Part shown: in pieces, positions 9,915 through 60,358 of the stretch
How positions within the stretch are numbered: position 1 is the first letter of the stretch
Layout: the number at the start of each line of letters is the position of its first letter
Source: Polytrichum commune
Lineage: Eukaryota > Streptophyta > Polytrichopsida > Polytrichales > Polytrichaceae
DNA: 64,000 bases
Direction of reading: 5' to 3'
NCBI GenBank assembly: GCA_950295325.1
Contig: OX485803.1
Coordinates: 39,571,554-39,635,553 of the forward strand
Position numbers and translations under genes: made by a program
The notes under the pieces: generated by a model
Database searches by the model: none
The model's input: only the letters and a program-made list of their open reading frames with translations
What the model was told of the DNA's origin: nothing

Positions 9915-11520
9915 TATAGCCTAACCTTGTTAGTACGACACTCGTTTATATGACACCCTTAATATTACGACACATTTTTGCGCAACCAAACTTTTCAGTT
10001 CAAAACTCCCTCTTTTATACGACTACGACACTCAATAATACGGCATTTAGAATCTCCGTTTTGTCATATTAAAGAGGTAATTAATGTTAAAATTCCTTTC
10101 ATCTATGTTATGTACATCTAAAATACATTCATTTTCACTTGGGAACTACTTGGGAACTTGATGATAATTAGGGATACTAGTGTAGAATGGACTTGGTTAG
10201 GGTTAGAGTGGTCTCCTTCCTATTCTTTTGTCAGATTATGAGCCTGAAGATGTTTACAACATGGATGAGACTGGATTGTATTTTAGAGCACATCCTAATA
10301 AAACATTAGCACCAGGGAAGGTGAAGGGTCGGAAGTTACATAAGGAGCGTGTAACATTTGCTCTCGCTGTTAAGTCAACTGGGACTAATAAATTGAAGTT
10401 GCTTGTGATTTATACGTCCAAGCAACCACGATGTTTTGGAAGGTGGGAGCCTCATGAGTATGTTCGGTGGCACTCAAACATAACAACTTGGATGAAGGGG
10501 GATATATTTGAAGCTTGGATTTTGCAGCTCAACAATCAATTCAAAGGCCAAAATCAGAAGGTGATTATGATTTTGGATATTGCATCTTCACATGTTGTTA
10601 GCTCTGCCAAAGTTGGTAAGTCTCGTGGTTTTTCAACCTTGGAATTGAGCAACATGACTTTGATATTCCTTCCTCCCAATGTTCCAAGCATAGTTCAACC
10701 TTTGGATCAAGGTATAATAGCATCTTTTAAAAATTTAGTACAAGAATAAACTTTTGTAGTGGGTTTTATCACAATATGATGATGCTACATTGAAGGACTT
10801 AAGGAAGGTGGTGGCCAACATCAGACATGCTATCATGTGGAGTTATGAAGTATGGAATGAGATAGATGCCTAGATAGTCAGGAATTGTTGGAGGATGACG
10901 CGTATATCACCTACAACACGGAATGTTGATTTTGCCCTAGTTGATGAAAGCGGAAAGAATAGAATGCAAGAAGAATCAAATGAACTTGGTGCTCTGATTT
11001 CAAAGTTGTGATTGGGTGATGATGAGATGTCAATTGAGACTTACATTCAGATGGAAAGGGAAGAGAACACTGAGCTAGAATTGAGTACTAATGAGTTGGT
11101 GGATGCTGCTTTGGGACTCAATCATGCACAAGGCTTTGATATTAATGTTGATCTACATTCAGTAGATGTGGATGATGTTGCTCCACCTACAGTAAAACTT
11201 AGTGATGCTAAACGTCATGCATCATTGTCGTCTAATTTCTTATTAGATGACTCTTAACATCTTGGTGTTAATGAAATTACCGATTTTCAAAAGCTAATAA
11301 AAAATTTAGACAAGATGATAGTTGCTAACTTGGGGTAGTTCTTGAAAATATTTGTATTTGTTTGGAGTTATAAGGTATTACTTCATACAATCTACACAGC
11401 TTAAACTCAGTGTATATAACTTTAAGCTCCTATTGCTTATGTTTTGGTATTCCCTCAACAGTACGACACTTTTACGCCATTTGTCATGTTAACGAGAAGG
11501 CGGCACCTCGATAATACGCC
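9915..11520 (+). mobile_element. Decayed pogo/Tigger-like (Tc1-mariner superfamily) element
   Basis: A DDE_1-type transposase remnant (10216-11265) is bracketed by reiterated TACGACAC / GTCATATTA-type motifs: TAGTACGACACTCGTTTATA near 9930, more copies to 10075, and AGTACGACAC, GTCATGTTAACGAG and CTCGATAATACG at 11460-11515. Such subterminal arrays are typical of pogo-like ends. The exact termini and the TA duplication are unclear. The part that should encode the N-terminal DNA-binding (CENP-B type helix-turn-helix) region is missing. Confidence 0.65.
10216..11265 (+). pseudogene. pogo/Tigger-like DDE transposase, C-terminal two thirds, broken
   Basis: The frame from 10216 reads DYEPEDVYNMDETGLYF (first catalytic Asp in NMDETG), then MILDIASSH (second Asp; usually LDNASSH, here Asn is Ile) and SIVQPLDQGIIASFK (third Asp region). 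An in-frame stop follows at about 10747, the homologous sequence resumes at 10768 (SQYDDATLKDLRKVV), another stop falls near 10873, and TGA at about 11009 precedes the acidic tail MSIETYIQMEREENTELEL. The N-terminal DNA-binding half is absent. It cannot make a working transposase. A related C-terminal tail occurs at 18420-18660 on the other strand. Confidence 0.85.
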
Positions 11521-22132: not shown

Positions 22133-25100
22133 ATGCAAAACGCAATGTCAGACTACGTGAGCCAGATCTGCGAGGTCGTTCATTCGATCCAGCAGAAATT
22201 AGTTGCCGGAGCGGCCGGGACAGGTGTGATTGTGAACCAACTCCAATCGTTGCACATGTTTGGGAAGTTCAAGGCTGTGAGTGTTGCGCTTGTGGAGCAT
22301 CGGCCTTTCTTCTTGAGCCCAAAGTGGCAGTTGATTTTGAAGGATATTTTTCGACTCGTGACGGAAGCACACAACATTGTGGAGGAATGTGGAATCGACC
22401 AGGCCGGAGATTCCTTTGTGAACACCGCGCTCCTACAGGTGGACAATGAGGAAGCATTTACAAATCTGCTTGGGAGGTTGAAGTCTACCATAGGCCTAAT
22501 TCTCGATGACGAACTAGTCTGCAATGCTCATCATCAACGCATCTACGATACTTTCCAGAAGTTGTGCGCAAGCGTCTGTCCACCTAACAAAACCGCCTTC
22601 AAGTATGACCACGAGCAGTTACTTGTGAAGCTCAAAGACATGGTTGCAGCGAGGATCGGCTTGCAACAGTGGAATAAAGGTCAAAGCTTTCGGGCGGTAC
22701 ATCACCTGATCGAGAAGGTTAATCGCATCCTTGAGCGCAAGAGATCTGAACTGCCTGATCAGGTTGAGGCAGTCGACAGCAATCATGTGACGGAGCCAGA
22801 GTTAAATTGTTTCGTCACGGAGGATTCGCCACTGATTTTGAAAGACAGCGATATCGTTGGTGGGGGAACCAGCGGGAAGGTATACAGAATAGAGTGGTCG
22901 GGGTCAGAGTGCGTCATAAAGAAGTTCTGCTACGCGGTAAGGGAAGAAGAGGCCAAGCTCTTGGTGTCTGCAAACCATCCCAACATCGTCCGAGTGATCT
23001 GTTGCTTGCAAGACAGCGGAGGGACACCCATCGGAATTCTCATGGAGTTGATGCCCATGACGCTCGATAAATTCATTAAAATAATGCACCACCACGACCA
23101 ACACGAAGATGAATCTGACGTGCGTTTAACAACTCGGGTTTTACCATCAGCACTTCCTTTTTATTTCTTATGGCTATTTTCTAATTTTCTTAACTAGTTT
23201 CACTGTTGATATCTGTCCAATAGAGTTATTTGTAAAGTAAAGCAGAGGAAACCATGGGTCACTGTATCTTTATGACTGGGGGTAGTGCCCTCAAGTCCCA
23301 CAATGCCTTCCGCTTAGTGCCTTGCTCTATACATAATCATATTCTCCTAATGAATTTGATATTGGAAAAAACTCAAAAAGATGAATCCAGATTATGTCGT
23401 TTTTGCAATGGTTGATTTTTATATTCACCGGAACCAATAAATAACAAAGAAAATATAAGAAAATATACTATGTAAGGGTCTTACTTGATATGATTAGACA
23501 ATTCACAAGCCTTATTAAATACTTGAATATCCTATATTATGCGCAAATAATAAAGTTTTTAATTATATATTTGCTAAGTTATTATAATTACAACTTCATG
23601 CTTTATTATGGAAGTCTTTTTATAAGTTATCATCTGAACCTTATTTTGACGGTGCCCTTGCTTATTACACAGGAGTACTCACCACGGAGTTTCACGCACG
23701 AGGCGATCATCGACATTCTGTGGCAAATCGCGTCCGCCATGAAGTACTTGCATCAGCGGGGGATTGTGCACCTGGATTTGAAACCGTCCAACATCCTGGT
23801 GTCTCCGAGCCGAATCCCCGAGCTCGCGAGGGATGGGTATGTTCGCGCCAAACTCATCGATTTCGGGTGTGCGAAGCGGACCGACAACTCAAATGCTCAG
23901 TACTTCAACATCCCGCATTTCGGCACGACTCGGTACCGTGCTCCCGATCACCTGACCTTCACAAAAATTGATCCTGAAAAATGTGATGTCTACAGCTTCG
24001 GAATATTGTTTTCGGAGGTGCTTACGGGCCAAATCCCGTTCCCCGACATGGAGTGCAGCAAAATGAGATTCAGTGTCGGGAAGAATAAAGAGCGTCCCGC
24101 ATTGCCAACGGACTGTCCACAGGATCTAGCAGCGCTGATCGAGAAGTGTTGGGCCCATAAACCCAAGGATCGTCCCGATTTCTCCCAAATCTGTGATGAG
24201 CTCTTCAGGGTGAGAGCTCGCCTTCTGATGCACCAATTCTTCCGAGCTCCAAGCCGATCAGCACGGTCGTCGGAGGCCTTGATAAGGGTGAGCCGCAGTC
24301 GACACGCACAAACTCATTGCGATCCAATCGACTTGAGTACAAAACGAGCAAAGTTGCAGGAGTTTCTCAAAAGCGTGTCGGCGAGGCTGCCAAGCCCATC
24401 GCCCATGTCCGTCAAAAGGTAATTAGCTCACGACCACTCCCCGCCAAGTGATAACAAACATCATCTCGTTTTCAATTGAAAATCGTCAACTCACGATTCC
24501 TTAATATTTCTAATTGTAGTACATATTCTTACTATTCCGGTTATTGTGCGTTATGATTTTCAGTTCTAGCTGAAAAGTCCTAGCCCCTATATGCACACAT
24601 GCGTTATTCTGGTAATATGCTCCCTTGCCCTTCATACTCTACTAATCTATTTAAAACAAATAACAAACCATTGTAGAATGTGAAATTTTCATCTTGTTTG
24701 GTGACAATATGGTCTTCAAAATTTAATCATAAGGATCTAATTAAGGTTTGATGGCGTTAGAAATTCTCACGAATAAAATTGATAATTTTTATAATGTCAA
24801 CCCAGGCCGCACGATGCCTCTATCCACTACTGGTGCGGCGATGAAGCATTCACTTACCAAGAGCTTTATGTCGCCACCCACGGCTTCCACTCGCAGAACA
24901 AACTTGCCACTCCAAAGGAGCACACATGCAAGTACGGTAACATGTACAAGGGAACCCTCAAAGACACGGTCACACGTGTGGCGGTGCGCAAGATCCCAAC
25001 CACAGTCATCGATGTCGAGTGCGTCCGGCGGATAAGTCACATTCAACACCCAAATGTTGCCGGGCTACGAGGATGGTGCAATAACCGAGAGAATCTGCTG

Positions 25101-26745
25101 TTGGTGTACGAGTACATGGAGAAAGGGAACTTGAAGAGCATGTTGCAAGATGACCTCGAGGTCAAGTACTTGCGGTGGGTCGTCCGGCGCGACATCCTCA
25201 AGGGTGTCGCGTCGGCGGTGCAGTACTTGCATGACGATTGTGGGCTCGTGCATCAGGGCGTGAAGGCCAGCAACATCTTGCTTGGATGGGATAACAATCC
25301 GCACCTGCGAGACTCGGGCCTGGCACTCCTTGTGCCACAAAATTCAATAAAGCGGAGCAGGTCGATTTCGAAGAAGCGAGGCCACTTGGCGCCGGAGCTG
25401 TGGCACTACAAGGAGCACACGAAAGAAACCGACGTGTTCAGCTTTGGCAACCTTATTTTGGAGGTGGTGTGTGGCGACGTCCACCCCGCGCATCTTCCTG
25501 CTTCGAGCTCCTCAAACGGTACTGCATTCAAACCCACAAAAGCCGTGGAAATTCATCACCTCTCTCGACTATCCAGGTTTAAGGTAGATGGTGCCCTTAA
25601 TGAAAGGGATACATCTACCTATATCCTAGATTTCCGTGAATTCTTATATCACAAATTTGATGAGCAAACATAATGGTTGCAAAGTGGACGTTTAGATAAA
25701 CCCCATCATTATTACCGTTTGTGTCTAAATTAGGGAAGGTGCACGTTTCCACATGTGAATTGTTTAAGACATAAATTGAAGCAATGTTTTGTGATGCAGT
25801 CTGACCAGGGTTGTCCCCCATCCTATCCTTTTTGTCCATCACCGTCCCAGGAGGGGACCGAGATCGGACAAGGGTAATTATTTTTCCAACGTAGAAAAAT
25901 TGATCAACCAAATGGTGTGATTAGTCTACGTCGAATTTGCAAGTCAGGTTACTCCAGGTCAGGTCGACCATTGACCTCCCAGTTCACTTGCCGGCAAAAA
26001 TTAATAAATTTGACTGGTCATCTAGTCTTGTCAACCTGAATTTTCAGGTTGACTGATCGATTACAAAAATTTCTACAGATTCTCGGGTGTTGGTTCTGGC
26101 TGAGGATTTGGTTTTAGCAAGCTCTACTTTACACAAATGATCGCCTAACCTACCCCTGCTCTTGATGCTCCAGATTATGATTGCCAGCTCAGGAAGAGTC
26201 ATGGCTGCTCCCGGCGGTTCCTGCACGACTATGTGTGGGAGTCGTACACGAAGCATGGCAACCTTGGAACACTCGACATGTGGGTCAAAAAGATCGCCGA
26301 CCCTCGCTTGCACGGCAACTTTGAGGTGGCCGATGTGCAGACAGTGCTCATGCTCGGCTTGTGGTGCTGCCACCCGTACTTGAGCATGCGGCCATCCATG
26401 AGCGTCGTTCACCAACTCTTGAGCGCAGATCGGATTTATGATACCCCACCAAAATATCATTTTCATGGGAAAAAGGAGTGTAGAAGATCCTGCCCTCCAT
26501 TAGCTCATCGTCCCGAGTTCACGAAACTGTATGATCAAGTCCCACCCAAGAAGCCAGAGGTCTGGTATGAGCAACCCGGACCACCTGAGTGCAGCAGATC
26601 CTCCCAGGATCATACACATGATGATCATGTCGTTCCTGACAATCATCAAAAGGAGAAGGCCAACTTTGACTGCCCATGTCTTTCAATTTCCACCGCACTC
26701 TTTGTGAAATATGAAAACTGTCTACAACGTCCTCGATTTGCTTGA
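22133..26745 (+). CDS. Tandem kinase-pseudokinase protein
   Basis: Four exons join with exact phase: 22133-23119, 23673-24418, 24806-25518 and 26174-26745, giving 1005 residues. Junctions are GAC|GTGCGT..ACACAG|GAG, AAAAG|GTAATT..CCCAG|GCC, AACG|GTACTG..CTCCAG|ATT. Residues 1-230 form a helical-looking region I do not recognise. Kinase 1 has a glycine loop GGGTSGKV (about 243), CVIKK lysine (263), HLDLKPSN (362-369) and IDFG (391-394), so it is probably active. Kinase 2 (about 590-870) has the lectin-receptor-kinase style TYQELYVATHGF, LRGWC, LLLVYEYM and KASNILL, but its glycine loop is lost, the VAVK lysine is Arg (639), HRD is HQG and DFG is DSG: a pseudokinase. No signal peptide or membrane segment is seen. 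Kinase-pseudokinase fusions include plant immune receptors; that role here is inference. Two separate genes remain possible, since intron 2 begins with an in-frame TAA. Confidence 0.78.
24419..24805 (+). promoter_or_regulatory. Phase-matched intron that decides one- or two-kinase product
   Basis: The donor GTAATT begins with an in-frame TAA when unspliced, so retention would end the protein after residue 578, right behind kinase 1. Splicing to the CCCAG at 24801-24805 completes an Arg codon and continues into kinase 2. The frame before 24806 is closed by a TAA at about 24792, so kinase 2 has no obvious own start codon upstream. Confidence 0.6.
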
Positions 26746-57596: not shown

Positions 57597-58728
57597 ATGG
57601 AAGGATACTTTGTTGATGAGGAAGCACGTAGAGAGTCACAAGGAGAGTGGTCACAAAATTCAGAGTGGATGCAACGAGTGTCAAATCAAAATTTCAGAGA
57701 GAATCAAAATTCGATTTCACGAATGTTGCAAGGTCCGAATGTGCTCCCCAACACTTTTAGTGTATTTCATCCTCCTCCACTTCTGAACATGACAAATTAC
57801 AGACAAGGAGGACAGTTAGATAGTCATCATGTTATAGAAGAAATGTTTGAAGAAAAAGAGGAAACTGAGGGAGCAGCAAAGAGCCAACTAGCAGGAAGAA
57901 AGAGGGGGCGTGTTACAAAAGAATCAACAAAGAAGATGAAGAAAGGCGACAAGAGGAATACAATCGAAATTGGCGAATCGGAAGAAGAAGAAGAAGAAAT
58001 GAGCAGAATCAAATGGAAGGATTTTAAAGTGCATCACCTGATAGCAATTCGCGGGGAGATGGAGGAAGAATTCACAAAAACAGCAAACAAGCAAGGTAAT
58101 ATGTTTTTCAAATTTTTTTGTAATTTGATTTTTGGTAAAAGGTAAATGTGGTAAAAGGTAAATATGGTAAAAGGTAAAAGATAAAAGGTAAACGTATGAT
58201 GTTGGCCGTATGATGGGCCCGTAGAGGCCTTGGCCTTAGCCGTAAGCCCCTATGCCCCCCCCCCCATAGTCGGGCGGCCGCTGCCGCGGGGGCTTCGAGT
58301 TTTGTTACTGTATTTAACAAAAGTTTGTCGATGTCGGGAATGGAACCCGCGTCTCCTCTACCCTAAACCTCTATCCTTACCACTACGTTACACTCCCTAC
58401 TTCGATACCAATGACGTCGCTTATGTCCTTATACTACACTTCAACTATGCTGAATTTTTATTTTCAGGGTCAATTTCAACATCTTTTAGCTTCTGGTTTG
58501 GAGTTTTTAATGTGTTTTCCTGTTGCTACTGTAGGTACCAACTCTTGGCTCAAATTGCAGATTCGAATGGTCGCTGCAATCAAAGGTTTCAACCGTTCCT
58601 GGTTATCGTGCAAAAAAAAATACAAAACCATCTTAAGTGAATACAGAACTGACAAGAGAACAAATGAAATTTATGCCGTAGTTTGTATTGCCACAAACTT
58701 TCTGCCAATGTTTCGTGCATCGTTGTAG
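57597..58728 (+). CDS. Harbinger ORF1: Myb/trihelix-like DNA-binding protein
   Basis: Two exons, 57597-58095 and 58535-58728, join in phase (GCAAG|GTAATA..CTGTAG|GTACC) for 230 residues. The first half is acidic and low-complexity, with a basic cluster AGRKRGRVTKESTKKMKKGD that may be a nuclear signal, followed by IGESEEEEEEMSRIKWKDF. The second half, HHLIAIRGEMEEEF then WLKLQIRMVAAIKGFNRSW and CKKKYKTILSEYR, has the Trp spacing of the Myb/SANT-like or trihelix fold found in Harbinger partner proteins, which carry the transposase to the nucleus and help it bind ends. A tRNA-derived SINE occupies much of the 439-bp intron. The 3' end overlaps the transposase gene tail by 140 bp, so the true C terminus may differ. 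Confidence 0.75.
58140..58395 (-). mobile_element. tRNA-derived SINE in the Harbinger ORF1 intron
   Basis: Read on the minus strand, 58395 onward has an A-box-like TAACGTAGTGG (58390-58380) and a B-box GGTTCCATTCC (58347-58337) at tRNA spacing. An unrelated GC-rich body follows, then a 3' tail of TTTTACC/TTTACC repeats (58200-58140). This is the layout of a Pol III-transcribed SINE. It is not a functional tRNA: no cloverleaf acceptor stem was seen. The target duplication could not be fixed because of the repetitive tail. Confidence 0.65.
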
Positions 58729-60022
58729 CTTCCCGCAGAAGGTCATTAGCCTTCTCATTTTCTCTCAATAAAAATAAATTTGTCTCTTCATCATTTTCTT
58801 CATCTGCAATTGGCATATCTTCCCTAGCTAATATCCTTCTTCGCACTTCCGCAATTCCAGCTCTTTCTCCTCGTAATTCACTGCCTTCTCCTACTTCACC
58901 CTCGCTAATTCTTCTAGATAATTTATTTTCTGCTTCAATAATCCAATCTTCTTCTATACCTTCGTTATTGACAATGCATATATTGTGCAATACTATACAA
59001 GTTGCTACAATATCAGGCATATTCCTCAAAGGTACCTCAGATCGTTTCATTATCAATCTCCATCTGCCCTTCAAAATCCCGAACGCCCTCTCTACGCACA
59101 TCCTCGTCGAAGATTGTATGAAATTCCAATTTCCCTCTTTCCCGGATAGCGCTGTTTTTCCACCCTTAAATGGACAATACATCCAAGGTCGTACCGGATA
59201 TGCCGCATCTCCTATCAACTTGTATGGCTGGAATTTACCCTCAATACAAGCTCGTCCAATTTTTGTCACTTGAAATACTGCCCAATCGTGAAGACTCCCT
59301 GCCCACCCAAACTCATAATCCCAAAACATGCAATCAGGTCCAACAATTCCCTGCAAAATCGCTGAATGAAATGACTTCCTACAGTAATAATCTTCTCCCC
59401 CGAGTATAGGAGCTAAAACAGGAATATGTGATCCATCTATCGCACCTATAATGTAAGGTATTCCGTGCAACTTTTCAAACTTTGAAGCTAAAACCCTAAA
59501 CTGTGATTCACTTGGAGTTTGCACGAAAATTGGTTGAAGATGCTTTCTTACGGCTCTGCAAAATTCTCTCACTATTATAGATATTGTGCTTTTATGTACT
59601 CCATACAAATCACCTATTGTTTGCAATCCATCACCACTACCCAACCGATGCAATGACATCGCTATCCTCTCTTGCACCGGTACCGAAACCCTAAAACGAG
59701 TATCCTCTTTCTTCAAATAAGGACCCAACCTCTCACACAAGAACCTAAATGTCGTATATGTCACTCGCGTTCGCTTTCTAAATTCTTTCTCCGTCCACGA
59801 ACCTAATAGCAACCGGTCCACAAAACCTAACATCCTCTCTTGACTCCATATGTTCCTCTCTTTACGTCTTTCGTAAACCACGCTCAAAATTGCAAATTTT
59901 TCCCATTCTCCTTGCAAAATCAGTGTTTGAATGCCTACAACATTCTTCACAAGCATGTACAAAAATATGTACAATCCTAGTAGCACAACTAGCTTCCTCC
60001 TCCTCTCTTCCATTTCGACCAT
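58589..60022 (-). CDS. Harbinger transposase (DDE_4, HARBI1-like)
   Basis: A single open frame of 477 residues starts at MVEMEERRRK and ends at TAG. After an N-terminal hydrophobic stretch, a helix-turn-helix-like region (RIAMSLHRLGSGDGLQTIGD, GVHKSTISIIV) precedes the catalytic domain. The acidic triad is intact: GAIDGSHIPV (first Asp), KLIGDAAYPVRPWM (second Asp) and RMCVERAFGILKGRWRLI (Glu). The length and motif order match PIF/Harbinger transposases, which cut at TTA/TAA sites. No stop or frameshift is visible. The last 30 residues overlap the other gene's 3' end on the opposite strand and may be non-essential. Confidence 0.96.
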   Translation of the reverse strand: MVEMEERRRKLVVLLGLYIFLYMLVKNVVGIQTLILQGEWEKFAILSVVYERRKERNIWSQERMLGFVDRLLLGSWTEKEFRKRTRVTYTTFRFLCERLGPYLKKEDTRFRVSVPVQERIAMSLHRLGSGDGLQTIGDLYGVHKSTISIIVREFCRAVRKHLQPIFVQTPSESQFRVLASKFEKLHGIPYIIGAIDGSHIPVLAPILGGEDYYCRKSFHSAILQGIVGPDCMFWDYEFGWAGSLHDWAVFQVTKIGRACIEGKFQPYKLIGDAAYPVRPWMYCPFKGGKTALSGKEGNWNFIQSSTRMCVERAFGILKGRWRLIMKRSEVPLRNMPDIVATCIVLHNICIVNNEGIEEDWIIEAENKLSRRISEGEVGEGSELRGERAGIAEVRRRILAREDMPIADEENDEETNLFLLRENEKANDLLREATTMHETLAESLWQYKLRHKFHLFSCQFCIHLRWFCIFFCTITRNG

Positions 60023-60358
60023 ACTTGCTGAATTTTAAGGCGAAAAGAAGAAAAACCTAAGTGAGAAGATAAGTGAAGGCATGTGTAGACAAGTGAAGTC
60101 AACAAAATGGTCAAACTTTGTTTTTTACTAAAACTGCCCTTTTTGGGCTTTATATTAAAAAAATCAGCACATCCACTCCTTGCCGCATGGTCATTCCTCT
60201 TGGTCCACATTCGGTTTACACCTAGTGAGGGGCCCAACGGCTTTGTAAATCAATTTTTTAATAACTCGGACCATGAAATGTAGACCATGAACTCGTACCA
60301 AAGAATAAGGCATCTTCCGTGGGACGAGTTCATGGTCTATGGTGTAAACCGCCCCTAA

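Follow-up and report, generated by a model that had tools for sequence, protein, structure and literature searches.

A predicted gene of the moss Polytrichum commune combining an MLKL-type helical domain, an active-looking kinase and a lectin-receptor-kinase-like pseudokinase

We analyzed a stretch of 64,000 nucleotides from the moss Polytrichum commune (the window; contig OX485803.1, here C1, positions 39571554-39635553) together with the genome from which it comes (407.8 Mb, 64 contigs). Its forward strand carries, at positions 22133-26745, a predicted gene of four exons that keep one frame across three introns and encode 1005 amino acids (aa). The original prediction, made from the sequence of the window, described this gene as a phase-perfect fusion of an active-looking kinase with a pseudokinase resembling lectin receptor kinases, and a Pfam search of the 1005-residue protein indeed found two kinase stretches. 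The features of the gene are the following:

22133-23119 (+), exon 1, with the start at 22133 or 22145 and an alternative intron-1 donor at 23137; across its junction with exon 2 it stays colinear with an intronless relative, locus L061
22145-22770 (+), plant-MLKL (HeLo / DUF1221 / RPW8-like) helical domain with brace-like helices, assigned by profile, alignment and AlphaFold model
22847-23119 (+), N-lobe of the first kinase (kinase 1; GGGTSGKV loop, VIKK lysine); Pfam Pkinase covers residues 239-505
23673-24418 (+), exon 2, the remainder of kinase 1 (non-RD HLD at 23769-23777, DFG), followed by a 64-residue linker
24419-24805 (+), intron 2, the predicted fusion junction, phase 2, with an in-frame TAA at 24420-24422 when unspliced; best of 17 site pairs
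24806-25518 (+), exon 3, the N-lobe and most of the C-lobe of the pseudokinase, the domain starting at 24849
26174-26745 (+), exon 4, the end of the C-lobe (26174-26430; the alignment with the structure 6cth crosses the join), then the tail
26431-26745 (+), C-terminal tail and stop codon

The introns (553, 387 and 655 bp; phases 0, 2 and 1) all have GT-AG ends, and the GC content is 0.56-0.71 at third positions of the exons versus 0.31-0.42 in the introns. The frame holds as predicted, but the agreement of phases says little, since the sites that fit are the ones a reader will choose: within the scanned ranges, intron 1 has 19 site pairs that keep the frame free of stops, intron 2 has 17 and intron 3 has 33, the proposed pairs included. 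Scored with a splice consensus, the pair 24418/24806 proposed for intron 2 is clearly the best (6.5 versus 2.4), and its donor AAG/GTAATT falls at the 99.8th percentile among the GT sites of the + strand of the window. With the same consensus, the donor at 23137 scores slightly above the one proposed for intron 1 and three pairs (for example, 25583/26188) outscore 25518/26174 for intron 3, and the exact borders of these two introns are uncertain. Intron 1 is backed by colinearity with L061, where MELMPM..L..FI is followed by DI..QIA..M.YLH. The start at 22145 agrees with the starts of relatives, this agreement being no test, as the aligned row of the window was cut there. The joining of the two kinases depends on the predicted splice 24418/24806.

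The helical domain in front of kinase 1 belongs to a family of which 16 members, the window gene included, were aligned (L017, identical to L016, was dropped from the profile and the alignment). The family profile matches the structures 6ka4 and 6lba in a PDB profile search, and Pfam at E up to 1 finds DUF1221 in eight members and RPW8 in six. At the same threshold the N-terminus of the window protein itself matches neither DUF1221 nor RPW8. Because its direct comparison with the N-termini of two Arabidopsis MLKLs (AtMLKLs) was not significant, the assignment was settled by the family profile, through which, rather than through the window sequence alone, the kinship with the AtMLKL HeLo domain is seen, and by a later structural model. 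This AlphaFold model (predicted local distance difference test, pLDDT, 82) shows a predicted helical bundle like that of AtMLKL, and its top VIA-align matches are 6lba and 6ka4; Foldseek gave 366 matches at E <=10, none of them at 0.001, with no MLKL among the best 50 of 366. An AlphaFold model of exon 1 made from its sequence alone reached a pLDDT of 37 and was left out of the fold search. The predicted structure strengthens the HeLo assignment and leaves the odds of function unchanged.

Kinase 1 keeps the GGGTSG loop, the VIKK lysine, HLD and DFG and is thus of the non-RD type. Among its best 60 PDB matches 6ka4 and 6lba are the top plant entries, behind animal MAP3K12, consistent with an MLKL-type kinase. 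Kinase-1-like matches are located on seven contigs, and NB-ARC is found within 3 kb downstream of 52 of the 149 listed (random mean 0.135, maximum 2 in 200 trials; the lists of both domains are lower bounds and the length of contig C7 in the random control was a guess). At eight of nine loci with kinase-1 relatives (the exception is L013) NB-ARC follows shortly downstream on the same strand, two of the NB-ARC matches containing a stop. The one kinase-NLR locus that was read (NLR, nucleotide-binding leucine-rich repeat protein) consists of a kinase exon, a phase-0 intron and an NB-ARC exon, the structure given for moss PK-NBS-LRR genes in PMC3352924, which calls this class moss-specific. According to PMC11218826, kinase-NLRs are enriched in nonflowering plants, with wheat Tsn1 also listed, and the kinase domain elicits a modest, variable response for a Physcomitrella kinase-NLR and a reliable one for Tsn1. 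By its sequence, kinase 1 is a member of the family fronting moss kinase-NLRs, which would make the window gene a HeLo-kinase module with a dead receptor kinase replacing NB-ARC-LRR: exons 3 and 4 encode a kinase instead, and among the matches listed there is no NB-ARC within 20 kb. Identity of the junction intron with that of kinase-NLRs was rejected, since their phases differ (2 versus 0).

The second half of the protein, taken alone, matches the Pfam kinase domain (E 1.4e-26). Among solved structures, the lectin-receptor-kinase domain 6cth matches it best (E 7e-39), ahead of BAK1 (7e-28); this upholds the predicted pairing with a domain of this type. The six best relatives in the same genome are frames of 495-841 aa with 39-43% identity, and a legume-lectin domain is present in eight of ten frames scanned from among the nearest; Pfam finds no lectin ectodomain in the predicted 1005-aa protein. 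In the kinase-2 tree, where the second domain sits on a long branch, the branch of the lectin-receptor-kinase clade has support of 100/99 (the bootstrap had not settled), and in a reduced tree the approximately unbiased (AU) test did not reject the opposite side (p 0.405). An origin of the two kinases by duplication was rejected, given 34% identity over 109 aa and their different families. On the predicted splice, the protein has the two kinase domains of a tandem kinase-pseudokinase, one with the key catalytic residues and one without.

All the motif changes named in the original prediction were found: the first loop glycines are gone, VAVK is changed to VAVR (24978-24989), HRD to HQG (25251-25259) and DFG to DSG (25311-25319), while APE, the catalytic-loop lysine and asparagine, and the aspartate and glycine of DFG are retained. 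In six lectin-receptor-kinase-type genes, read in five regions, the lysine, HRD and DFG are all present. The claim of a selective loss was not supported. The second domain keeps 56 of the 90 columns identical in 6cth and BAK1; losses affect seven of the 12 columns that were classed by hand as catalytic and 27 of 78 other conserved columns (Fisher p 0.11); the loss of catalytic residues is clear, but not significantly selective. Intron 3 as a common feature of lectin receptor kinases was not supported by six genes (three align unbroken, one more continues in the same frame, two are undecided). The closest relative of the second domain (L020, C2:47.895 Mb) has a plastocyanin-like ectodomain (E 3.2e-10), and another lectin-receptor-type kinase (L024, C3:8.124 Mb) a glycosyl hydrolase 26 ectodomain (E 1.7e-30).

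The same layout, HeLo, kinase and receptor-kinase-like pseudokinase, occurs in a single exon at eight other loci that were read, seven at C3:43.65-43.81 Mb and one at C1:66.118 Mb. Full single frames of 911-928 aa are present at five of them (L061+L065, L062, L063, L064 and L069), and L066, L067 and L068 are broken or short. Pfam gives no match for the L062 pseudokinase, yet 6cth is once more its top hit in the PDB (1.6e-7); beyond the cluster, this domain is related to receptor-kinase frames also matched by the window domain, plus one 45-aa fragment. Unlike the window gene, these loci are intronless, have a far more degenerate pseudokinase and carry an additional C-terminal N-lobe fragment: the last ~60 residues of L061-L064, L067 and L069 resemble the start of a third receptor-kinase N-lobe (for example, FTSQEVRDMTSNFSTPKGYGKYPGTLPNGEKV in L061). 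A further copy, with a 493-aa frame, lies at C3:43860297.

We calculated the ratio of non-synonymous to synonymous differences (pN/pS), pooled for each domain, with codon bootstrap intervals. For all eight loci the ratio is 0.96 (0.57-1.66) in the N-terminus, 0.52 (0.36-0.82) in kinase 1, 1.97 (1.09-4.38) in the linker and 0.76 (0.55-1.13) in the pseudokinase; for the five full frames the respective values are 0.77 (0.46-1.38), 0.63 (0.42-1.03), 2.0 (1.03-8.19) and 0.72 (0.47-1.17). The fusion may be shared by the window gene and the intronless cluster or may have arisen independently: for neither kinase does the AU test reject a tree that holds the window together with the cluster (kinase 1, p 0.25; kinase 2, p 0.46), and in the free kinase-1 tree the window joins L060, a grouping of low support (67/79). 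L040 was dropped from the kinase-2 tree and MAP3K12 from the kinase-1 clade tests. The linker of the window resembles those of the cluster weakly, and the idea of a common linker was rejected: the score was reached by 39 of 1000 shuffles for L061 and by 117 to 626 of 1000 for the other four.

The window protein resembles several known systems. WTK1/Yr15, Rpg1 and Sr62 likewise have a kinase followed by a pseudokinase from a different family, WTK1 shares the non-RD first kinase, and partners of the lectin type occur (PMC6170490); they differ from the window gene in that the latter has an MLKL/RPW8-like front domain and a kinase 1 of the moss kinase-NLR/MLKL family, and comes from a moss, not a cereal. 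The same paper counts one Physcomitrella protein, and none of its 92 tandem kinase proteins has further conserved domains. A HeLo-type N-terminus with a kinase is shared with Pm13, other MLKL_NTD-kinase proteins and Arabidopsis MLKLs, and the active-looking first kinase with Pm13; however, the window protein carries a second, dead kinase, and the kinase of Pm13 is of the LRR_8B family (PMC10951266). Moss PK-NBS-LRR proteins (PNL, Pkn-NLR) have a helical domain and a kinase of the same family in front, and differ in the NB-ARC and the junction intron, as described above. No published description of the HeLo-kinase-pseudokinase layout was found by a literature search, which did not extend to the atlas of tandem kinases by Reveguk et al. 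(2025); a paper on fern immunity (PMC12512272) contains neither "tandem kinase" nor "MLKL" in its text. Kinase-pseudokinase fusions being already known, the executor-type domain in front is the new element beside the literature searched.

The original interpretation of a kinase joined to a pseudokinase stands, but it overlooked the MLKL/RPW8-like N-terminus, the kinship with kinase-NLRs and the intronless relatives. What the analysis shows directly is which features the sequence has, to which families its parts belong, and that the layout recurs in relatives without introns. Combining these observations, we give an even chance to the reading that the product is a moss immune receptor of the kinase-fusion type, ~1000 residues long and composed of an MLKL-type (HeLo) cell-death domain, an intact non-RD kinase and a dead lectin-receptor-kinase domain. 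The immune role is suggested by the architecture, and the roles of bait, relay and killing by analogy with Pm13 and AtMLKL, the cereal tandem kinases and the kinase-NLRs of PMC11218826. The pseudokinase would mimic the portion of lectin receptor kinases that lies in the cytosol and would serve as bait, so that a pathogen effector targeting these kinases would bind or modify it; its altered contact with kinase 1, the relay, could release the N-terminal bundle or cause its phosphorylation, and the bundle, as executor, might then assemble at the membrane and cause cell death. The pseudokinase would thereby take the sensing role held by NB-ARC-LRR in the sister kinase-NLRs.

Some tandem-kinase receptors need a helper NLR, as do Sr62 and RWT4/WTK3 (PMC12830362), and the genome has many NLRs with the same front end. 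The window protein could likewise detect an effector and activate a separate NLR, perhaps a kinase-NLR fronted by HeLo-kinase, its helical domain serving for contact and not for killing; we consider this rather unlikely, since the N-terminal family consists of cell-death executors, which would be superfluous to a pure sensor. The kinase-pseudokinase order and the kept fold landmarks, as well as the activity of WTK7-TM, which requires both domains (PMC11006675), would also agree with a pseudokinase regulating kinase 1 as in Janus kinases, in signalling that need not be immune. The front end shared with NLRs and the clustered, partly broken copies point instead to turnover of the immune type and make such a regulator improbable.

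Two products or two genes would be expected if kinase 1, when unspliced, ended at the TAA at 24420-24422, directly at the intron-2 donor: the second domain could belong to a separate gene, or partial retention of intron 2 could yield a 578-residue HeLo-kinase in addition to the full fusion. An AATAAA at 24772 agrees with such an end. However, the donor is very strong, the first in-frame ATG of exon 3 (24942) is already within the N-lobe, and the fusion is in one frame in the intronless relatives; a separate start exon for the second domain, named in the original prediction as contrary evidence, was not found within 24423-24805 (none of seven candidates with a donor score >=2 and splicing to 24806). 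We regard this alternative as quite improbable. The long branch, the broken copies within the cluster and the loss rates of catalytic and other conserved residues, which do not differ significantly, could finally indicate that the second domain is a functionless, decaying fragment. Its 427 codons contain neither a stop nor a frameshift, whereas simulated decay, which assumes that the changes came after constraint was lost, left none of 60 runs open at 20% codon change and 1 of 60 at 15%, though 7 of 60 at 10% and 17 of 60 at 5%. Because no run stayed open at 20% and five of the eight loci with the same layout are fully open, long neutral decay is unlikely, and we hold a functionless fragment to be very improbable. 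The predicted maintenance of the second domain is not proven: in the cluster, the pN/pS interval of the pseudokinase includes one.

Tentatively, and with less than even confidence, the favored immune-receptor reading can be extended to mosses at large, which would possess an interchangeable HeLo-kinase front end combined with varied sensors (NB-ARC-LRR, dead receptor kinases, a second HeLo-kinase), the window receptor having its own executor, needing no helper NLR and bridging cereal tandem kinases, plant MLKLs and moss kinase-NLRs. The mechanism by which tandem-kinase receptors bring about cell death is not settled. If the reading is true, the presence of a sensor-like pseudokinase and an MLKL-type executor in one chain would allow this mechanism to be tested by transient expression of a single gene. 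It would also suggest that mosses, which are remote from the grasses that supplied most of the described kinase fusion receptors, have non-NLR kinase receptors and kinase-NLRs as versions of a single module.

Other tandem arrangements were seen in the genome. L070 (C1:10902048-10905548, -) is one 1167-aa frame with the order HeLo-kinase-HeLo-kinase and a hydrophobic C-terminus (MLKL_N E 1.1e-5, just below the curated cut-off), and a 1137-aa frame near C1:11.03 Mb holds two kinase matches. At L057 (C1:992233-996370, -) a gap of 388 bp separates a 651-aa HeLo-kinase frame from the next frame, of 599 aa, which encodes a pair of MAP3K-like kinases (catalytic motifs HGN/DIG and HRN/DFG); a fusion of the HeLo-kinase (C1:994418-996370) to this pair is possible but not claimed, as the best in-frame splice at this adjacency is weak (2.69). 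L050 (C5:52554667-52556694), a frame of 676 aa, encodes two kinases in tandem, each with HRD, and resembles a tandem kinase of the duplication type. Paired kinase frames are repeated three times at C5:49.367, 49.382 and 49.396 Mb, one of them being L060, in which a HeLo-like kinase frame lies downstream of a kinase that, like kinase 1 of the window, is non-RD, with HLD and DFGC. The window gave no matches in Rfam and tRNA scans. The window also contains an alternative oxidase exon at 1163-1840 (+; Pfam AOX E 2.7e-75) and transposase genes at 10207-10746 (+; DDE_1, Tigger-like) and 58592-60034 (-; DDE_Tnp_4, Harbinger-like).

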